From NCBI RefSeq assembly GCF_002157145.1, contig NZ_CP021361.1:1240001-1304000 (forward strand): a stretch of DNA of 64,000 nt. The letters run 5' to 3'. Positions 7,149-35,397 of the stretch are shown piece by piece (positions within the stretch are counted from its first letter, which is position 1; each line of letters starts with the position of its first letter). The DNA comes from Acidovorax carolinensis. GTDB lineage: Bacteria; Pseudomonadota; Gammaproteobacteria; Burkholderiales; Burkholderiaceae_C. The notes below the pieces were generated by a model. It was not told the DNA's origin. It made no database searches and was given only the letters and a program-made list of their open reading frames with translations. The position numbers were made by a program, and so were the translations under genes.

Positions 7149-8383
7149 GCGGGCAGCGCCTGGGCACAGGCGTGGGCGCTGGCCCAGGCCCACTGAAAGT
7201 TGTAGCCACCCAGCCAGCCCGTCACGTCGACCACCTCGCCAATGAAGTACAGGCCGGGCTGCGTCTTGCACTCCATGGTCTGCTGGGACAGCACGCGCGT
7301 GTCCACGCCGCCCAGCGTGACCTCGGCCTTTTTGTAGCCCTCGGTGCCCGTGGGCGTGAGCTCCCAGCGCGCCAGTTGCTCGGCCAGCCGCGCCAGGGCC
7401 TTGTCGCTGGCCTCGTTGATGGGGCGCTGCCAATCGGCCTCGCGCTGGGCCCAGGCGTCGGCCAGGCGGCTCGGGACCAACGTGGCCACCTCATTGGCGA
7501 TCAGCTTGCGTGAGCGGGCCTTGGCCTGCGCCAGCGCGGCGGGCAAGTCCACCGTGGGTGCCAGGTTGATGGCCAGTGGTGTGCCTTCTTGCCAGTAGCT
7601 CGATATCTGCAGCACCGCCGGGCCCGAGAGGCCACGGTGGGTGAACAGCAGGTCTTCGTCAAACGCCATGCGGTTTTTCTTGCTACCGGTGCTGATCTGC
7701 ACCGGCAAAGCCAGCCCCGCCAGCTGCGCATAGGGGGCCCAGCCCGCACCGTCAAAGGTCAGCGGCACGAGGCCCGGGCGGCGTTCTATGAGCGCAATGC
7801 CGAACTGCTGCGCCAGCCGATAGCCAAAGTCGGTGGCGCCGATCTTGGGGATCGACAGGCCGCCGGTGGCAATCACCAGCGAGCGCGCTGCTACCGGCCC
7901 GCGATCGGTATCCATTTGATAGCTTCCTGCGCTTTGTGCATCGGCGCCAGGGGCTGAAAAGGCTATTTTTTTGACACCGCAGGGTTGCCAGTGCGTGACG
8001 CCACCGGCGGCGCATTCCGCCAGCAGCATGGCGATGATGTCCTCGGCCGAGCGGTCGGCAAACAGCTGGCCCTTGTGCTTTTCATGAAAGGCAATGCCGT
8101 GCTTTTGCACCAGCGCGATGAAGTCCGCCGGTGTGTAGCGCGACAGCGCCGAGCGGCAGAACTGCGGGTTCTGCCCCACAAAGTGTTTGTGCGGCGCGGC
8201 GGGGTCGAGGTCGCGGTTGGTGAAGTTGCAGCGCCCGCCGCCCGAGATGCGAATCTTTTCGGCCACCTTGTCGGCATGGTCGATGAGCAGAACTCTCAGG
8301 CCGCGCTGGCCGGCCTGGGCGGCGCAGAACAGGCCGGCGGCGCCGGCACCGATGACGATGGCGTCGTAAAAAGGAATGGACAC
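7145..8383 (-). CDS. HI0933/YhiN family FAD-dependent oxidoreductase
   Basis: Flavoprotein of the HI0933 (YhiN/BaiN-like) family, about 412 residues. The N-terminal FAD motif reads IVIGAGAAGLFCAAQAG. SGGGRCNFTN follows near residue 45, SLVIATGGLSIPKIGATDFG in the middle, and the C-terminal signature GLYFIGEVVDVTGWLGGYNFQWAWASA. I place the start at a GTG (8383) just before the FAD motif because the upstream extension overlaps the divergent thioesterase. No clear ribosome site supports it. Residues of roughly 136-156 (KKIAFSAPGADAQSAGSYQ) are encoded by a copy of the atagct/agcgct repeat, in frame. The physiological substrate is unknown; some relatives reduce double bonds. Confidence 0.88.
   Translation of the reverse strand: MSIPFYDAIVIGAGAAGLFCAAQAGQRGLRVLLIDHADKVAEKIRISGGGRCNFTNRDLDPAAPHKHFVGQNPQFCRSALSRYTPADFIALVQKHGIAFHEKHKGQLFADRSAEDIIAMLLAECAAGGVTHWQPCGVKKIAFSAPGADAQSAGSYQMDTDRGPVAARSLVIATGGLSIPKIGATDFGYRLAQQFGIALIERRPGLVPLTFDGAGWAPYAQLAGLALPVQISTGSKKNRMAFDEDLLFTHRGLSGPAVLQISSYWQEGTPLAINLAPTVDLPAALAQAKARSRKLIANEVATLVPSRLADAWAQREADWQRPINEASDKALARLAEQLARWELTPTGTEGYKKAEVTLGGVDTRVLSQQTMECKTQPGLYFIGEVVDVTGWLGGYNFQWAWASAHACAQALPA
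7914..7974 (-). repeat. atagct/agcgct repeat inside the HI0933-family gene
   Basis: Minus strand AAAAAAATAGCC, then two GCGC-centred arms, then GAAGCTATCAAA match the family consensus. The copy lies entirely within an open reading frame without breaking it. Confidence 0.65.
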
Positions 8384-13753: not shown

Positions 13754-13770
13754 GGCGTGGGTTTTGGGTG

Positions 13771-13822
13771 TTTTTGGGCTCTAGCGCTTATTCATCAAGC
13801 GCTGGTAGCTATTTTTTCTGTA
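13771..13822. repeat. atagct/agcgct repeat upstream of nasA
   Basis: CTCTAGCGCTTATTCATCAAGCGCTGGTAGCTATTTTTT pattern: two AGCGCT arms around a TTATTCATC spacer, then TAGCTA and a T run. It lies 18-70 bp before the nasA start. Confidence 0.8.
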
Positions 13823-13839
13823 GTGTCTATTTTTCACTG

Positions 13840-13872
13840 GCCGTTCGTGCTGAGCTTGTCGAAGCCGGAACG
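13840..13872. repeat. Interspersed motif gttcgtgctgagcttgtcgaag
   Basis: GTTCGTGCTGAGCTTGTCGA within 13845-13866 is a short motif that I recognise as recurring in many proteobacterial intergenic regions. It is partly self-complementary around GAGCTT. It lies just outside the large palindrome. Confidence 0.5.
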
Positions 13873-13902
13873 TGCCAGTTGGGACAGCATGCTTGGTTTC
13901 AA

Positions 13903-14588
13903 GGCGGAGGCCGGGAGTCGCCCGGCATGCGAGTAACTTTCTTTTGCTTCGCCAAAAGAAAGTCACCAAAGAAAAGGCGACCCCCAGTCTGCGACCCCTT
14001 CGCTGCGCTACGGGGCGACCTGCGTCGGTGCGGTTGCGGGGTGCGCCGCAGAACTCACTGCGCTGCTGTGCAGCTCCGTTCAAACAACTGCGGCGAGTCA
14101 GATCACGAGGCATGCGCGCTTCGACGCGCATGCTCACCCCGCAAGCGCCCCGACGCAGGCGCAGCCAGCAGGGGTTGGACAGCCGAACAGCCGAATATCC
14201 ACACGGGCCATTGCTTCGCTCGGCCCAGTTTGCGCAGCGCGTGGCGCTTGCGCCTGCGATGTGGGGCCGAGCGCAGCGCAGCGAAGCAATGGCCCGAATG
14301 GATGTTGGTTCCCCAGCCCCTCTGTATGTGCCGAGGAGCGCAGCGGGCGGGGTGGCATGTGTGCCGCAGGACACACATGCATCGTGGTCTGACTCGTCGC
14401 AGTTGTTTGAGCGGAGCGCGTCAGCGCGCAGCGAGTTCTGCGACGCACCCCGTCGGCGAGCACCACAGGTTGCCCCAGCGCGCAGCGCTGGGGACGCAGA
14501 CAGCGGGGTCGCCTTTTCTTTGGTGACTTTCTTTTGGCGACGCAAAAGAAAGTTACTGCGCCGCCGGGCGCATACCCCGGCCTCCGCC
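13903..14588. repeat. 686-bp imperfect palindrome between nirD and nasA
   Basis: The two halves are inverted, diverged copies of one unit of about 340 bp centred near 14246. Outer ends GGCGGAGGCCGGG and CCCCGGCCTCCGCC pair. Next come near-identical blocks containing AACTTTCTTTTGC and AAGTCACCAAAGAAAAGGCG, then CAAACAACTGCG. The centre is flanked by GGGCCATTGCTTCGCT (14205-14220) and its reverse complement (14280-14295). Each arm also folds on itself: GCATGCGCG/CGCGCATGC at 14110-14133 and GCATGTGTG/CACACATGC at 14355-14380, two stems related by compensatory changes. The long open frames crossing it are by-products of the repeat and have no recognisable domain. Confidence 0.85.
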
Positions 14589-14633
14589 CTCTGCAAAGGC
14601 AAGCCAGCAAAAATAGGCAGCCCCGTAAACAAA

Positions 14634-15017
14634 TCAAACCCCCACAGTCCTGCGTGCAGGCCCCGCCACAGGCCGGGTCAGATCGGTCGCTACAGATGCC
14701 AACTCCTGCGAATCCATATACACCGCCCCATCCTCCACCCTCACCGCAAACTTCGGCGTGCACCCCTCATCCGGCGCCGCCGCCTGCCCATCGCACAAGC
14801 CAATCGTCCAGTTGTGCATCGGGCAAGCCACCTGCGTGCCAAACACAATGCCTTGGCTCAGCGGCCCGCCCTTGTGCGGGCAGCGGTCCAGCAGCGCAAA
14901 AACGCCGCCCGCATCGTTGCGGAAAACCGCCACATCCAGGCCCTTTTCGCGGGCGACGCGGCGCGAGCCGAGCACCGGGATGTCTTCCACGCGGCAGATC
15001 AGTTTCCAGGCATTCAT
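14634..15017 (-). CDS. nirD: Nitrite reductase small subunit, Rieske type
   Basis: Small subunit of the NADH-dependent assimilatory nitrite reductase, partner of NirB. The 127 residues carry a complete Rieske [2Fe-2S] ligand set: C46 and H48 in RCPHKGG, C65 and H68 in ACPMHNW. Some enterobacterial NirD proteins lack these ligands, so this one probably holds a real cluster. The body (FAVRVEDGAVYMD) is typical of NirD. It lies after nirB but is separated from it by 185 bp holding a repeat and a MITE, and from nasA by the 686-bp palindrome. All are on the same strand, so operon membership is likely if read-through persists. Confidence 0.95.
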   Translation of the reverse strand: MNAWKLICRVEDIPVLGSRRVAREKGLDVAVFRNDAGGVFALLDRCPHKGGPLSQGIVFGTQVACPMHNWTIGLCDGQAAAPDEGCTPKFAVRVEDGAVYMDSQELASVATDLTRPVAGPARRTVGV

Positions 15018-15202: not shown

Positions 15203-17650
15203 TCAAGCCACGGCAATCGGAATGAACTGGCGCTGGTCCACTGCTGCCTTGTCAAACTCGAACCAAGGGTCGGGCTCGCCGTCGAGCGCAAACTGCAGCT
15301 GCTCCCACAGCGCCTTGCGGCCCTCGTGGTCTTCCAGAATGCGCTTTTTCACATAGTCCAGGCCCACGCGGTTCACGTAGTGCACGGTGCGCTCCAGGTA
15401 CCAGCCTTCCTGGCGGTACAGCTCGCAAAACGCGCCGGTGTACTCCAGCACTTCTTCTGCGGTTTTGAGCTTGGTGAAGAAGTGGGCCACCTCGGTCTTG
15501 ATGCCGCCGTTGCCGGCCACGTACATCTCCCAGCCGCTGTCCACGCCGATGATGCCCACGTCCTTGATGCCGGCCTCGGCGCAGTTGCGCGGGCAGCCGC
15601 TCACCGCAAACTTGACCTTGTGCGGGGCATACATGCGCCACATGGCGCGCTCCAGGTCCTTGCCCATCTGCGTGCTGTCTTGGGTGCCCATGCGGCACCA
15701 CTCGCTGCCCACGCAGGTCTTCACGGTGCGCAGCGCCTTGGCATAGGCGTGGCCGCTGGGCATGCCGATGTCCTTCCACACGTTGACCAGGTCTTCCTTC
15801 TTCACGCCCAGCAAATCGATGCGCTGGCCGCCCGTGACCTTGATGGTGGGGATGTGGTACTTGTCGGCCGCATCGGCAATGCGGCGCAGCTCGTCGGCCG
15901 TGGTCTCTCCCCCCCACATGCGGGGGATGACGCTGTAGGTGCCGTCTTTCTGGATGTTGGCGTGGCTGCGCTCGTTGATGGCGCGGCTTTGCGGGTCGTC
16001 CTTGGCGTCCTTGGGCCAGGTGCTGATGAGGTAGTAGTTGACGGCGGGGCGGCAGGTGGCGCAGCCGTTGGGCGTCTTCCACTCCATGAATCGGAACACG
16101 TCGCCAATGCTCAGCAGCTTGTTGGCGCGGATCGCGTCGCGCACGGCCTGGTGCCCATGGTCGGTGCAGCCGCACAGGGCCTTGGTCTTGGGTGTGGCGC
16201 TGTAGTCGCCACCGGCGGTGAACATGATGATCTGCTCAACCAGCCCGGTGCACGAACCGCAACTCGCGCTGGCCTTGGTGTGCTTGCGCACTTCATCGAG
16301 CGTGAACAGGCCCTTGTCCTTGATGGCCTTGCAGATGGCGCCCTTGGTCACGCCGTTGCAGCCGCACACTTCGTCGCTGTCCTGCATGGCGGCGGCCTTG
16401 CTCTGGCCCTGGTGGCCGGTGTCGCCCAGGTGCGATTCGCCGAACATCAGCTTGTCGCGGATGTCGTTCACCGTGCGGCCGTCGCGCAGCAGCTTGAAGT
16501 ACCAGCTGCCGTCCACGGTGTCGCCATACAGGCAGGCGCCCACCAGCTTGTCGTCCTTGATGACGAGCTTTTTGTACACGCCGCCAAAGGGGTCGCTCAT
16601 CACGATCTCCTCGGTGTCGGCGCCGCCCTGGAAGTCGCCCGCACTGAACAGGTCGATGCCCGTCACCTTGAGCTTGGTGGACGTGAGCGAGCCCTGGTAG
16701 CGGCCAATGCCGAACTCGGCCAGATGGTTGGCCAGCACCTTGCCCTGCTCGAACAGCGGCGCCACCAGGCCATAGGCAATGCCCCGGTGCGCGGCGCATT
16801 CGCCCACGGCGTAGATGCGGGCGTCGGTGGTGGTCTGCAGCGTGTCGCTGACCACGATGCCGCGGTTCACATGCAGGCGCATCTTTTCAGCCAGTGCGGT
16901 GTTGGGGCGGATGCCCACGGCCATCACCACCAGGTCGGCGGGCACCTCGGTGCCGTCCTTGAACTTCACTGCCTTCACGCGGCCCGTGTCGTCACCCAGC
17001 AGCTCCTGCGTCTGTGCCTTCATGAGGAACTGCATGCCGCGCTCGGCCAGCGACTTTTGCAGCATCCGGCCGGCCACGTCGTCGAGCTGGCGTTCCATCA
17101 GCCAGTCGCCCACATGCACCACGCTCACCTGCATGCCGCGCTTCATGAGGCCGTTGGCGGCCTCCAGGCCCAGCAGGCCACCGCCGATCACCACCGCATG
17201 TTTGTAGGTGGCGGCCGCGTCGATCATGGCCTGCGTGTCGGCAATGTCGCGGTAGGCCAGCACGCCCTGCAAATCCTTGCCCGGGATGGGCAGGATGAAC
17301 GGGTTGGAGCCCGTGGCCATGATGAGGCGGTCGTATTCGGCGGTGATGGTCTCGCCCGCTGCATTGGTGGCGTGGACGGTGCGGTGCACGCGGTCCACGT
17401 CGGTCACGGTGAAACCCGTGTGCAGCGTTATGTGGTGATCGGCATACCACTGCCAGTCGTTCAGGATGATCTCGTCAATGGTCTGCTCGCCGGCCAGCAC
17501 GGGCGACAACAGGATGCGGTTGTAGTTGGGGTGCGGCTCGGCGCCGAACACCGTGATGTCGTACAGGTCGGGCGCAATCTTCAGCAGCTCTTCGAGCGTG
17601 CGCACACCGGCCATGCCGTTCCCCACCATCACCAGCCTGGATTTTTTCAT
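15203..17650 (-). CDS. nirB: Nitrite reductase large subunit (NADH, siroheme)
   Basis: Catalytic subunit of cytoplasmic nitrite reductase, reducing nitrite to ammonium with NADH, FAD, Fe-S centres and siroheme. The 815 residues start MKKSRLVMVGNGMAG with the FAD-binding site. A second dinucleotide site is VVIGGGLLGLEAANGL near residue 150. A BFD-type [2Fe-2S] domain contains CGCNGVTKGAICKAI. The siroheme/[4Fe-4S] ligands are C646 and C652 in TCVGSEWCRMG and C686 and C690 in SGCPRNCAEAG. A perfect Shine-Dalgarno (GGAGGT) sits before the ATG. The open frame extends upstream but only into the regulatory leader. It is the first gene of the nitrate/nitrite operon. Confidence 0.97.
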   Translation of the reverse strand: MKKSRLVMVGNGMAGVRTLEELLKIAPDLYDITVFGAEPHPNYNRILLSPVLAGEQTIDEIILNDWQWYADHHITLHTGFTVTDVDRVHRTVHATNAAGETITAEYDRLIMATGSNPFILPIPGKDLQGVLAYRDIADTQAMIDAAATYKHAVVIGGGLLGLEAANGLMKRGMQVSVVHVGDWLMERQLDDVAGRMLQKSLAERGMQFLMKAQTQELLGDDTGRVKAVKFKDGTEVPADLVVMAVGIRPNTALAEKMRLHVNRGIVVSDTLQTTTDARIYAVGECAAHRGIAYGLVAPLFEQGKVLANHLAEFGIGRYQGSLTSTKLKVTGIDLFSAGDFQGGADTEEIVMSDPFGGVYKKLVIKDDKLVGACLYGDTVDGSWYFKLLRDGRTVNDIRDKLMFGESHLGDTGHQGQSKAAAMQDSDEVCGCNGVTKGAICKAIKDKGLFTLDEVRKHTKASASCGSCTGLVEQIIMFTAGGDYSATPKTKALCGCTDHGHQAVRDAIRANKLLSIGDVFRFMEWKTPNGCATCRPAVNYYLISTWPKDAKDDPQSRAINERSHANIQKDGTYSVIPRMWGGETTADELRRIADAADKYHIPTIKVTGGQRIDLLGVKKEDLVNVWKDIGMPSGHAYAKALRTVKTCVGSEWCRMGTQDSTQMGKDLERAMWRMYAPHKVKFAVSGCPRNCAEAGIKDVGIIGVDSGWEMYVAGNGGIKTEVAHFFTKLKTAEEVLEYTGAFCELYRQEGWYLERTVHYVNRVGLDYVKKRILEDHEGRKALWEQLQFALDGEPDPWFEFDKAAVDQRQFIPIAVA

Positions 17651-17675
17651 CGTGACCTCCGTAGGCGTTTCGGAA

Positions 17676-17735
17676 AAACAAAAAGGCGTCCGCACGGTGC
17701 GCTGGCCTGGCAGCCAACACCCTCGCAGGGACGCC
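17676..17735 (-). terminator. Attenuator terminator in the nirB leader
   Basis: Minus strand: GGCGTCC (17729-17735) pairs with GGACGCC (17685-17691) across a GC-rich internal fold, followed by TTTTTGTTTTT. It ends 26 bp before the nirB start, so it would stop transcription before nirB unless antitermination occurs. Confidence 0.85.
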
Positions 17736-17747
17736 ATCGTCTTCGTC

Positions 17748-17798
17748 AGCCCAACACGCCATTGCACCGGGCTCAACATGCGGCCTACCTTGGCCACA
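17748..17798 (-). promoter_or_regulatory. ANTAR-type twin hexaloop hairpins in the nirB leader
   Basis: In the minus-strand transcript the first hairpin (17779-17798) is stem TGTGGCC / GGCCGCA with loop AAGGTA. The second (17748-17773) is a 10-bp stem AGCCCGGTGC / GTGTTGGGCT, with several G-U pairs and loop AATGGC. Both six-base loops have A at position 1 and G at position 4, the signature recognised by ANTAR antiterminators. NasT encoded at 34614-35240 is the likely ligand. Confidence 0.8.
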
Positions 17799-17809
17799 CC
17801 CGGGGTAAT

Positions 17810-17824
17810 GCAAGGCCTGTGCCA
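17810..17824 (-). promoter_or_regulatory. Sigma-54 promoter of nirB
   Basis: Minus strand TGGCACAGGCCTTGC matches the -24/-12 consensus (TGGCAC N5 TTGC) with correct spacing. The predicted start is about 12 nt further on, just before the first ANTAR hairpin. The nrtA unit has the same promoter type. Confidence 0.85.
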
Positions 17825-31298: not shown

Positions 31299-32541
31299 TC
31301 AGGCTTTGATCTTGAAACCGTCGGCGTACCTGGCGGGGTCCTTGCCGTCCCAGACCACGCCGTCGATCAGCTTGCTCGTGCGCAGCACATCCTTGGGCAC
31401 GTTCACCTTGAGGGCGCTGGCCACCGACCTGTAAAGCTCCACCTGGTTCACCTGCTTGGCCACGGCCAGGTAATCGGGGTGGCTCTTGAGCAGGCCCCAG
31501 CGCTTGTGCTGGGTGAGGAACCACATGCCATCGCTCAGGTAGGGGAAGTTCACCGCGCCATCGTTGAAGAACTTCATGTGGTTCGGGTCGTCCCAGGTCT
31601 TGCCCATGCCATTCTGGTAGCGGCCGAGGATGCGCTGGTTGATGGCGTCCACGCTGGTGTTGATGTAAGACTTCTGCGCCACCGTCTCGGCCATCTTCAT
31701 CTTGTTCGACAGGCTGGCATCAATCCACTGGCTGGCCTCCAGCACCGCCATCATCACGGCGCGCGTGGTGTTGGGGTTCTTTTTTACGAAGTCGGCCGTG
31801 GTGCCCAGCACCTTCTCGGGTGGTCCTTCCAGATGTCCTGCGTGGTGTTGGCCGTCACGCCGATGCCGTCCATGATGGCGCGGTGGTTCCAGGGCTCGCC
31901 CACGCAAAAACCGTCCATGTTGCCCACGCGCATGTTGGCCACCATCTGTGGCGGCGGCACGGTGATCAGCTTGGCGCCCGACAGCGGGTTGATGCCCGCC
32001 GCCGCCAGCCAGTAGTGCATCCACATCGCGTGCGTGCCGGTGGGGAAGGTGCCGGCAAAGGTGTATTCGCGCTTTTCCCTGGCCATCAGCGCGGCGAGCG
32101 ACGGGCCGTCCACCGCGCCCTTGTCGGCCAGGGCTTTGGACAGCGTGATCGCCTGGCCGTTGTGGTTCAGGTTCATCAGCACCGCCATGTCCTTCTTCGG
32201 GCCGGCCGTGCCCAGGTGCACGCCATACACCAGGCCATACAGCACATGGGCAAAGTCCAGCTCGCCGTTTACCAGCTTGTCGCGCACACCGGCCCAGCTG
32301 GCCTCCTTGGTGGGGATGATGGTCACGCCGTACTTCTTGTCGAAGCCCAGCACCGAGGCCATCACCACGCTGGCGCAGTCGGTCAGCGGAATGAAGCCGA
32401 TCTTCACTTCTTTCTTCTCCGGGCGTCCGAGCCCTGGGCGTGGACGAGCGCGCGCAGCGCGGGGCTGATGCCCACGGCGCCCACGGTGGCGGCTTGCAGC
32501 ACGGTGCGGCGGTTGAGGCTGGTTTTCAACAGATCGGTCAT
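31299..32541 (-). pseudogene. nrtA: Nitrate-binding protein NrtA, two frameshifts
   Basis: Periplasmic nitrate-binding lobe of the importer. A Tat-like signal (LNRRTVLQAATVGAVGISPA) starts at 32541. The body EVKIGFIPLTDCASVVMASVLGF continues in a second frame, and the last third (EKVLGTTADFVKKNPNTTRAVMMAVLEASQW to the stop) in a third. The breaks are at about 32419 and 31820. In each, one C seems missing from a C run before GAG, and adding two bases restores 415 codons. Everything else is intact, with no decay, so either these are sequence errors in the assembly or the transporter has been lost recently. The downstream genes are whole. Confidence 0.85.
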
Positions 32542-32562: not shown

Positions 32563-32630
32563 AAACAAAAAAGGCGTCCTCACACCGCGCCAGCTGCATG
32601 GAGCAGCGGTGCGCGGGTGGGGACGCCTTT
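32563..32630 (-). terminator. Attenuator terminator in the nrtA leader
   Basis: Minus strand: AAAGGCGTCC (32621-32630) pairs with GGACGCCTTT (32570-32579) over a GC-rich fold, followed by a T run (TTTTTTGTTTG). It ends 22 bp before the nrtA start. The stem core GGCGTCC/GGACGCC is the same as in the nirB attenuator. Confidence 0.88.
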
Positions 32631-32640
32631 GTCCGGGTTC

Positions 32641-32696
32641 TGGCCACATCCGCCCGCCGTTGGGCGGATCGGCCAATGCAGACCTGTGAGGGTCTG
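32641..32696 (-). promoter_or_regulatory. ANTAR-type hairpins in the nrtA leader
   Basis: Transcript order: stem CAGACC / GGTCTG with six-base loop CTCACA (32679-32696), then an 8-bp stem ATCCGCCC / GGGCGGAT with loop AACGGC (32648-32669), extended by TGGCC/GGCCA. The second loop has A1 and G4 as ANTAR proteins require; the first does not. The arrangement parallels the nirB leader. Confidence 0.7.
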
Positions 32697-32707
32697 ATTG
32701 CATCAAT

Positions 32708-32722
32708 GCAAGCCCTGTGCCA
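32708..32722 (-). promoter_or_regulatory. Sigma-54 promoter of nrtA
   Basis: Minus strand TGGCACAGGGCTTGC is a near-perfect -24/-12 element. It differs from the nirB promoter by one base over 15. Confidence 0.87.
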
Positions 32723-34613: not shown

Positions 34614-35240
34614 TCAGCCCAGCAAGTCCATCACATCCAGCATCCGCTGCGCCACATCGGCCAGCTTCAGGCCCTTGTCCATGGCGGTCTTGCGCAGTTT
34701 TTCATAGGCGGCCTGTTCGCTCAGGCCCTGGCGCTGCATGAGCAGGCCCTTGGCGCGGTCGATGGTTTTGCGGTCTTTGAGCTCGGTGCGGGCGTCGGCC
34801 AGTTCGGTGCGCAGGGCCTGCTCGTGCTGAAAGCGCGCCATGGCCACATCCAGGATGGGGCGGATGCGCTGCGGCGCCAGGCCCGCCACGATGTAGGCAG
34901 ACACACCGGCGGCCACGGCGTCTTTCACATGCGTGGTGTCTTCATCGTTGGTGAACATGACGATGGGGCGGCGGGCGTCGCGCGTGGCCATCACCACATG
35001 CTCCAGCGCGTCGCGGGCCTCGCTTTCGGCGTCCACGATGATCAGGTCGGGCTGCAACTGGGCCAGCCGCTCGCTCAGGAACACATCGGCCGGCAGCGTG
35101 GCAATGAGGTTGAAATTGTTTTCCAGCAGGCCAATGCGCAGCGCCCGCGAGCGCTCGGCCTGGGTGGCGGCGTGTTCGTCGTCGGGGTCGGCAATGGCCA
35201 GGTCGGGGACCACCACCACAATGCGCAGGGCGTCGGTCAT
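34614..35240 (-). CDS. nasT: ANTAR-domain antiterminator response regulator NasT
   Basis: RNA-binding regulator of nitrate assimilation, 208 residues from MTDALRIVVVVPDLAI. The N-terminal receiver-like domain has LIIVDAESEARDALEHV in the acceptor region and PIVMFTNDEDTTHVKDAVAAGVSAYIV. A coiled linker follows. The ANTAR domain occupies the last 55 residues (LKDRKTIDRAKGLLMQRQGLSEQAAYEKLRKTAMDKGLKLADVAQRML). ANTAR proteins bind twin hexaloop hairpins and prevent terminators forming. Matching leaders precede nirB and nrtA in this window. The usual sensor partner NasS is not adjacent. The start has no clear ribosome site; an upstream ATG at 35270 is possible. Confidence 0.9.
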   Translation of the reverse strand: MTDALRIVVVVPDLAIADPDDEHAATQAERSRALRIGLLENNFNLIATLPADVFLSERLAQLQPDLIIVDAESEARDALEHVVMATRDARRPIVMFTNDEDTTHVKDAVAAGVSAYIVAGLAPQRIRPILDVAMARFQHEQALRTELADARTELKDRKTIDRAKGLLMQRQGLSEQAAYEKLRKTAMDKGLKLADVAQRMLDVMDLLG

Positions 35241-35397
35241 GCGTGGGGGTAAGCAAGATTTACGCCACATGCTGGTGCGCCGGTCTGGTGCACAGCACTG
35301 GTGCGGGCAATGAACCTGGTGGTCGCCAGGCTGGGTGTGGCACCTGCATTCCGGCTGCAGGCGTGGCCGCGCTGGTCCCGGGTTTTACACTCGGGGC

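Follow-up and report, generated by a model that had tools for sequence, protein, structure and literature searches.

A predicted NasT-controlled leader with an additional hairpin behind a sigma-54-type promoter upstream of nirB in Acidovorax carolinensis

The nirB and nrtA leaders and the putative regulator

The 64-kb stretch of the genome analyzed herein (the window) carries nirB and a nirD-like gene on the minus strand (Table 1). Upstream of nirB are a sigma-54-type promoter sequence, three hairpins with six-base loops (HP1, HP2, and HP3), an intrinsic terminator, and a U tract; loops with A at position 1 and G at position 4 are referred to as A1/G4. The initial annotation had listed the sigma-54 site, two A1/G4 hairpins with the loops AAGGTA (HP1) and AATGGC (HP2), the terminator, and the T run, and all of these elements were present on the minus strand. 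It had overlooked HP3 and a second leader before nrtA. The 3' arm of HP3 is the 5' arm of the terminator. HP1 and HP2 have C:G closing pairs, the HP2-HP3 linker is approximately 5 nt, and the HP1-HP2 linker is 4-6 nt depending on where the stems are taken to end. Only four pairs were predicted for HP3 of nirB, one of them within the hexaloop, which can thus close to a tetraloop. The nirB transcript is predicted from the -12 position to start at approximately 17798.

Table 1. Positions in the window of the leader elements and of the genes discussed in the text
Feature	Position	Strand	Remark
nirB sigma-54 -24/-12 site TGGCACAGGCCTTGC	17810..17824	-	pattern TGGCAC-N5-TTGC; same place in relatives
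nirB HP1 GTGTGGCC-AAGGTA-GGCCGCAT	17778..17799	-	A1/G4 loop; additional hairpin at the presumed 5' end of the transcript
nirB HP1 inner stem GTGGCC-AAGGTA-GGCCGC	17797-17780	-	
nirB HP2 AGCCCGGTGC-AATGGC-GTGTTGGGCT	17748..17773	-	A1/G4 loop; canonical ANTAR P1
nirB HP2 core stem GCCCGGTGC-AATGGC-GTGTTGGGC	within 17773-17748	-	
nirB HP3 AGAC-GATGGC-GTCC	17729..17742	-	G1/G4 loop; ANTAR P2 position; putative antiterminator
nirB intrinsic terminator GGCGTCC...GGACGCC	17685..17735	-	GGCGTCC common to HP3
nirB U tract TTTTTGTTTTT	17674..17684	-	
nirB, nitrite reductase large subunit (TIGR02374)	15203..17650	-	ATG at 17650
nirD-like Rieske protein gene	14634..15017	-	
nrtA sigma-54 site TGGCACAGGGCTTGC	32708..32722	-	
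nrtA HP1 CAGACC-CTCACA-GGTCTG	32679..32696	-	loop not A1/G4
nrtA HP2 ATCCGCCC-AACGGC-GGGCGGAT	32648..32669	-	
nrtA HP3 GGAC-AAAGGC-GTCC	32621..32634	-	A1/G4 loop; overlaps the terminator
nrtA terminator stem, then TTTTTT	32573..32627	-	
nrtA	31302-32541	-	split over three frames; changes near 32407-32434 and 31811-31820
nasT	34614..35240	-	open frame extends to ATG at 35270
Two overlapping NtrC-like sites immediately upstream of nasT	35276-35305	-	1 and 2 mismatches to the assumed consensus

In the window, outer-membrane and AcrB-type efflux genes are located upstream of nirB. The approximately 880 bp at 13754-14633, between the nirD-like gene and a molybdopterin oxidoreductase gene, held open reading frames that gave no Pfam match when tested. 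In one relative (locus L162), the gene upstream of nirB encodes an MFS transporter (L162:7893-9176, minus strand) and is preceded by a separate leader of this type at L162:9309.

The sigma-54 pattern occurred twice in the window, both times before an ANTAR-type leader (nirB and nrtA); 0.54 copies were expected from shuffles, and two or more were found in 9 of 100 shuffles. Three copies of the pattern GACRANGGCGTC were present (0.06 expected), a number reached in none of 100 shuffles. Two of these copies are inside the nirB and nrtA leaders, and the third is outside them at 8354-8365 on the plus strand. The third copy was not accepted as a leader; it scored 16.7 bits with R1, a covariance model of the HP2+HP3 core. 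The predicted fold of the nirB leader was better than that of 200 out of 200 shuffles (z -4.76). When the growing transcript was folded stepwise, HP1, HP2, and HP3 appeared in turn, and HP3 was permanently lost only once the 3' arm of the terminator emerged, with one intermediate length being an exception. A simple terminator scan with a loop limit of 3-8 nt reported none at the nirB leader.

The nrtA leader folded in a similar manner, HP3 being lost with the 3' arm of the terminator, and also with one exception. nirB was part of the training set of R1 and the nrtA leader of the window was not; R1 matched the latter (32671-32619) with 45.2 bits and nirB with 37.6 bits, while the next score in the 64 kb was 16.8 bits. 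These two leaders were the strong R1 matches in the 4.12-Mb genome. A third match in this genome (position 3679526, 26.4 bits) was judged to be a chance match; it includes an HP3-like sequence, no T run was seen after it, and it is antisense to what by eye reads as a glycosyltransferase gene. The 15 other matches listed for this genome scored 21.6 bits or less. Many nrtA leaders of the genus (loci L194-L217) have a gap of 35-46 nt between HP2 and HP3, and in several of these a further hairpin is inserted, for example CAAAGCCC-CCCAAT-GGGCTTTG. nrtA is intact in relatives, and its split form in the window represents either a broken gene or sequencing errors.

The proposal in the initial annotation of a sigma-54-type promoter followed by an ANTAR-type leader was supported. 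nasT stands near nrtABC and was the only ANTAR gene found in the genome. The nearest solved relatives of NasT by sequence were 1s8n (putative antiterminator), 6wsh (response regulator), NasR (4akk), and AmiR (1qo0). A nasS gene was not found beside nasT. The NMT1_2 gene that matched strongly in the vicinity of nasT is the interrupted nrtA, which has a twin-arginine-like start. In the whole genome, no other NasS-like gene matched strongly, and five weaker NMT1_2 genes (27-46 bits) were located elsewhere. A second strong NMT1_2 gene (approximately 273-288 bits), a possible sensor, is present away from nasT in 23 of 46 genomes of the genus (G030, G043, G007, and 20 others) and absent from that of the window.

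NtrC-like sites were scored against what we take to be the NtrC consensus. The best site of nirB had three mismatches, and 581 of 2000 random stretches (approximately 29%) contained one that was as good or better, while the best site of nrtA had two mismatches (5.5% of random stretches). When 2000 random stretches of 300 bp were examined, 16 (0.8%) contained a site with one mismatch, like the better of the two sites upstream of nasT. With the same assumed consensus, the nirB regions of relatives had a site with two mismatches or fewer in 36 out of 53 cases, versus 5.5% of random stretches. The indication of NtrC control of nirB was weak in the window and better in relatives.

Conservation of the hairpin pair that overlaps the terminator

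The nirB upstream set comprised 83 regions, one per genome, from 119 genomes; 36 genomes with weaker or partial matches were left out. A sigma-54-like site was present 150-260 nt before the start codon in 54 regions (52 distinct), and nearly all of the 29 regions without this site were from outside the genus. Within the genus, the leader was found in 45 of the 46 genomes with a nirB match, the exception being G002. A hairpin of the HP3 type (GGAC/AGAC-N6-GYCC) was detected in 51 of the 52 distinct leaders by a search in which the stem letters were fixed and the loop was free, its overlap with the terminator being read off the alignment and uncounted. All 51 loops had G4, and position 1 was G in 41 and A in 10. 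The other leader patterns demanded a purine at position 1 and G4 in HP3 and, therefore, their counts cannot show other letters.

To examine covariation, we aligned 52 HP2+HP3 cores (27 from nirB and 25 from narK-RNA loci), the rows of this alignment having been chosen by loop pattern. In the stems, 93.8% of cells were paired, and the covariation score was 0.511, versus 0.145 in shuffles and 0.149 or less in slid versions of the structure. Pairs changed on both sides gave a weaker signal: six were found and 4.7 expected, and 37 of 500 shuffles reached six.

The nirB leader has tandem six-base loops, a second hairpin that overlaps the terminator, and a linker within the range of 5-12 nt, as in ANTAR dual-hairpin leaders. 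Since the hairpin that overlaps the terminator is P2 in the ANTAR leaders described to date, HP2 and HP3 are expected to form the core site for NasT. The initial annotation had paired HP1 with HP2, both of which are upstream of the terminator and do not overlap it. A1 and G4 occur in both core loops of the nrtA leader; in nirB, the HP3 loop GATGGC has G1, and we consequently class the nirB leader as a variant rather than a plain member of the ANTAR group.

R1 also linked this core to ANTAR genes in other genomes. In a sample of 200 genomes of the order, an ANTAR gene was present in 35 of the 37 genomes with an R1 match versus 97 of the 200 overall (Fisher p 8e-11, with relatedness not removed and on the assumption that both searches drew the same 200 genomes). 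For 22 of the 39 matches, a same-strand ANTAR gene lay no more than 1 kb upstream; these position data covered R1-positive contigs and some others, and the figure of 97 came from a separate ANTAR search. At the class level, 28 of 369 genomes had matches. Among the 28 loci read (L252-L279), one was without a recognized core. In 8 of the remaining 27, three of which were from one genus, an A1/G4 hairpin with a C:G closing pair started within 45 nt upstream of the inner stem of HP2, a count that had no shuffle control. The sigma-54 pattern used did not detect a site in 15 of the 27, and the link to sigma-54 is, thus, not universal.

An Rfam scan of the window at the gathering threshold gave no match. 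The only known RNA family to give any signal was narK RNA (RF03032), which scored 12.8 bits at the nirB leader, below its cut-off of 43.2. A search of 300 genomes from the order detected RF03032 in 34, three of which exceeded the cut-off. Its consensus contains a sigma-54 site, the hairpin CC-AACGGC-GG, and then CGACAAAGACGUCGC, which the Rfam structure line, with one hairpin only, leaves unpaired. CGACAAAGACGUCGC could fold as a hairpin with an A1/G4 hexaloop, which would be ANTAR P2. In 28 of 30 RF03032 loci fetched from the order, a core with both loops was followed by a T run, and the second loop had A1 in all 28, although the pattern allowed A or G. The consensus, these cores, and the association of R1 matches with ANTAR genes make it highly likely that narK RNA is the NasT/ANTAR target site together with its sigma-54 promoter.

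Loop variation, the third hairpin, and possible mechanisms

The position 1 letter of the HP3 loop differed between the two leaders. A paired-leader table covered 46 genomes of the genus; both leaders were read in 31, and 14 were without an nrtA locus in the table. Among the 31, HP3 had G1 in 27 nirB leaders and in no nrtA leader, all 31 of which had A1. Position 1 was A in all 30 distinct nrtA leaders. Among 50 nirB leaders, 40 had G and 10 had A, and among 13 further leaders, 11 had G and 2 had A. G1 is able to pair with C6 in the HP3 loop. This pairing may stabilize HP3 without protein and, thus, the requirement for NasT may differ between nirB and nrtA.

HP1 varied more widely. In 45 alignable nirB leaders, its A1/G4 loop was kept in 8, and the loop ends were able to pair, leaving a tetraloop, in 26. 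In the genus, HP1 with A1/G4 was found in 8 of 46 nirB leaders (0.52 expected from shuffles). The 30 distinct nrtA leaders included 23 with such a hairpin (0.24 expected), and 13 further leaders included 5; only one of these 13 (in L162) was tied to a gene, that for the MFS transporter. The nrtA count is a regrouped one; an earlier group (19 of 19) had omitted nrtA leaders filed under another label. The seven nrtA leaders without an A1/G4 HP1 are those of the window and its nearest relatives. In the 31 genomes, an A1/G4 HP1 was present before nrtA only in 22, before nirB only in 4, including the genome of the window, before both in 1, and before neither in 4; two genomes of this last class, G006 and G033, do have A1/G4 loops before nrtA, which is undercounted by two. 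The loop splits in HP1 and HP3 track clades and, therefore, may be explained by a few independent events. At the level of the order, 34 distinct leaders were extracted by pattern from 59 loci. The distance between the sigma-54 site and HP2 was 34 nt or less in 22 of these, which consequently have little or no space for HP1, and 40 nt or more in 12. A third A1/G4 hairpin with a C:G closing pair was found in 8 of the 12 long leaders (0.21 expected from shuffles), representing seven genera and six families, none of them the family of the window.

The pairing proposed in the initial annotation implies that NasT binds HP1+HP2 and blocks termination from upstream, with HP3 being the 5' arm of the terminator folded on itself. 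In nirB of the window, HP1 and HP2 both have A1/G4 loops, C:G closing pairs, and a short linker, HP3 has G1, and the long HP2-HP3 gaps seen before nrtA in much of the genus are also compatible with this arrangement. However, few nirB leaders keep the A1/G4 loop of HP1 and nearly all have the HP3-type hairpin, and the 22 short leaders of the order set still carry the HP2/HP3 pair. HP1+HP2 was rejected as the core pair because the HP1 loop is not conserved and HP1 is absent from two-hairpin leaders, and we consider a role of this type to be quite improbable. The possibility that HP1 stabilizes the 5' end of the mRNA or insulates its folding, untouched by NasT and with incidental A1/G4 letters, is plausible, albeit doubtful. 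A hairpin is kept at this position in most nirB leaders even though its loop is usually without A1/G4, and the nrtA leader of the window is itself among the seven exceptions. An incidental origin is not easily reconciled with the excess of A1/G4 HP1 over shuffles in nrtA leaders and in the long leaders of other genera, or with position 2, which was A in all 28 A1/G4 HP1 loops of the genus, while positions 3, 5, and 6 varied (positions 1 and 4 were the selection).

G1 in HP3 may instead have largely freed nirB from NasT by making HP3 stable on its own, which would result in a fixed partial read-through. The G1-C6 pairing, the near-complete split between nirB and nrtA in the same genomes, and the predicted stability of the common G1 form of the genus (-6.0 kcal/mol versus -4.0 for the A1 form) favor this explanation. 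Nevertheless, HP3 of nirB in the window (-3.7 kcal/mol) is no more stable than the A1 form, and the loop G4, HP2 loop, terminator, and spacing all remain conserved, which makes this escape from NasT unlikely. The loops are small, the base pairs are few, and two copies of the sigma-54 pattern are not rare in shuffles; however, given the conservation, covariation, second leader, and association with ANTAR genes, the likelihood of chance hairpins before an ordinary terminator appears to be negligible.

Based on the sequence, the predicted folds, their conservation, the second leader, and the single ANTAR gene, we consider it quite likely that the nirB leader follows a sigma-54 promoter and attenuates transcription under the control of NasT. 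G1 and the few pairs of HP3, the low RF03032 score, the 29 of 83 regions without a sigma-54 site, and the lack of a clear NasS in the genome count against this reading. We infer promoter use, NasT binding, read-through, a response to nitrate, and a role for HP1. Sigma-54 polymerase would start at approximately 17798, and HP1 would form at the 5' end of the transcript, followed by HP2 and then HP3. If NasT is inactive, the 3' arm of the terminator would displace HP3, and transcription would end at the U tract. If NasT is active, one monomer of this ANTAR protein may bind HP2 and its partner HP3, such that the terminator is blocked and nirBD is read. The nrtA leader would work in the same manner with a fully canonical HP2/HP3 pair. 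HP1 may be a third, optional hairpin of the NasT type that adds a contact with NasT.

We tentatively propose that three-hairpin NasT leaders represent a functional class in which HP1 is a second docking option. NasT may bind all three loops, or it may load early on HP1-HP2 and then move to HP2-HP3. Whether HP1 has acquired or lost its A1/G4 loop, together with the change from A1 to G1 in HP3, may then give each operon a different read-through under a single NasT, with the transporter ranked before the reductase, and narK RNA would be the two-hairpin form.

Comparison with known systems

The ANTAR leaders described to date have two hexaloops with A1/G4, a terminal C:G pair, and a second hairpin that overlaps the terminator (PMC3369931, PMC3369936, PMC7496416), and the linker is 5-12 nt in the eut leaders of Enterococcus (PMC3369931, PMC3369936, PMC7496416). 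The loop A1 is needed in EutV targets and was reported to be important for NasR (PMC3369931, PMC3369936). The nirB leader resembles Enterococcus eut/EutV and Klebsiella nasF/NasR in its tandem hexaloops, C:G closure, terminator overlap, and short linker; it differs in having three hairpins, G1 in the overlapping loop, and another sensor arrangement. In the ANTAR mechanism described to date, a single leader forms either the antiterminator or the terminator, and the 'processive antitermination' of the initial annotation does not correspond to it.

The leader of Pseudomonas nirBD (nalA) is described as having a sigma-54/NtrC promoter and a transcription block that is relieved by NasT (PMC12830290, the reference list of which gives Romeo et al. 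2012 and Nie et al. 2024 on this subject). Therefore, the main idea of the initial annotation was already known in kind. The window differs from nalA in its third hairpin, in G1 of HP3, and in having no clear NasS, although nalA is compared here by its description and may share the hairpin or G1. In Paracoccus, the nasA leader binds NasT and contains the hairpins HI and HII, which have been studied by mutation; the mutant in HI no longer grew on nitrate (PMC3795266, PMC5424462). Oligomer formation by NasT was also reported (PMC3795266). In Paracoccus, nasS and nasT are cotranscribed, whereas nasT of the window is near nrtABC without a clear nasS. Our literature searches found no three-hairpin NasT leader with terminator overlap, no leader-specific G1 in HP3, no paper joining narK, ANTAR, and Rfam, and none on the narK RNA motif in Betaproteobacteria, which does not establish their absence from print.

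Three predicted hairpins also occur in mycobacterial PPE1-5' RNA, which binds the ANTAR protein PdtaR (PMC8131098). In contrast to the nirB leader, this RNA is described as a titrating RNA near a start codon and not as a leader with a hairpin that overlaps a terminator (PMC8131098). RF03032 has the same combination of a sigma-54 site and an ANTAR pair as the nirB leader, with one hairpin annotated by Rfam. The present results correct the core pairing for NasT, point to a third, optional site as well as to an altered loop, and provide a likely regulator for narK RNA, an unexplained Rfam family. If HP1 is functional, antitermination by ANTAR proteins extends beyond a single dimer bound to two hairpins.
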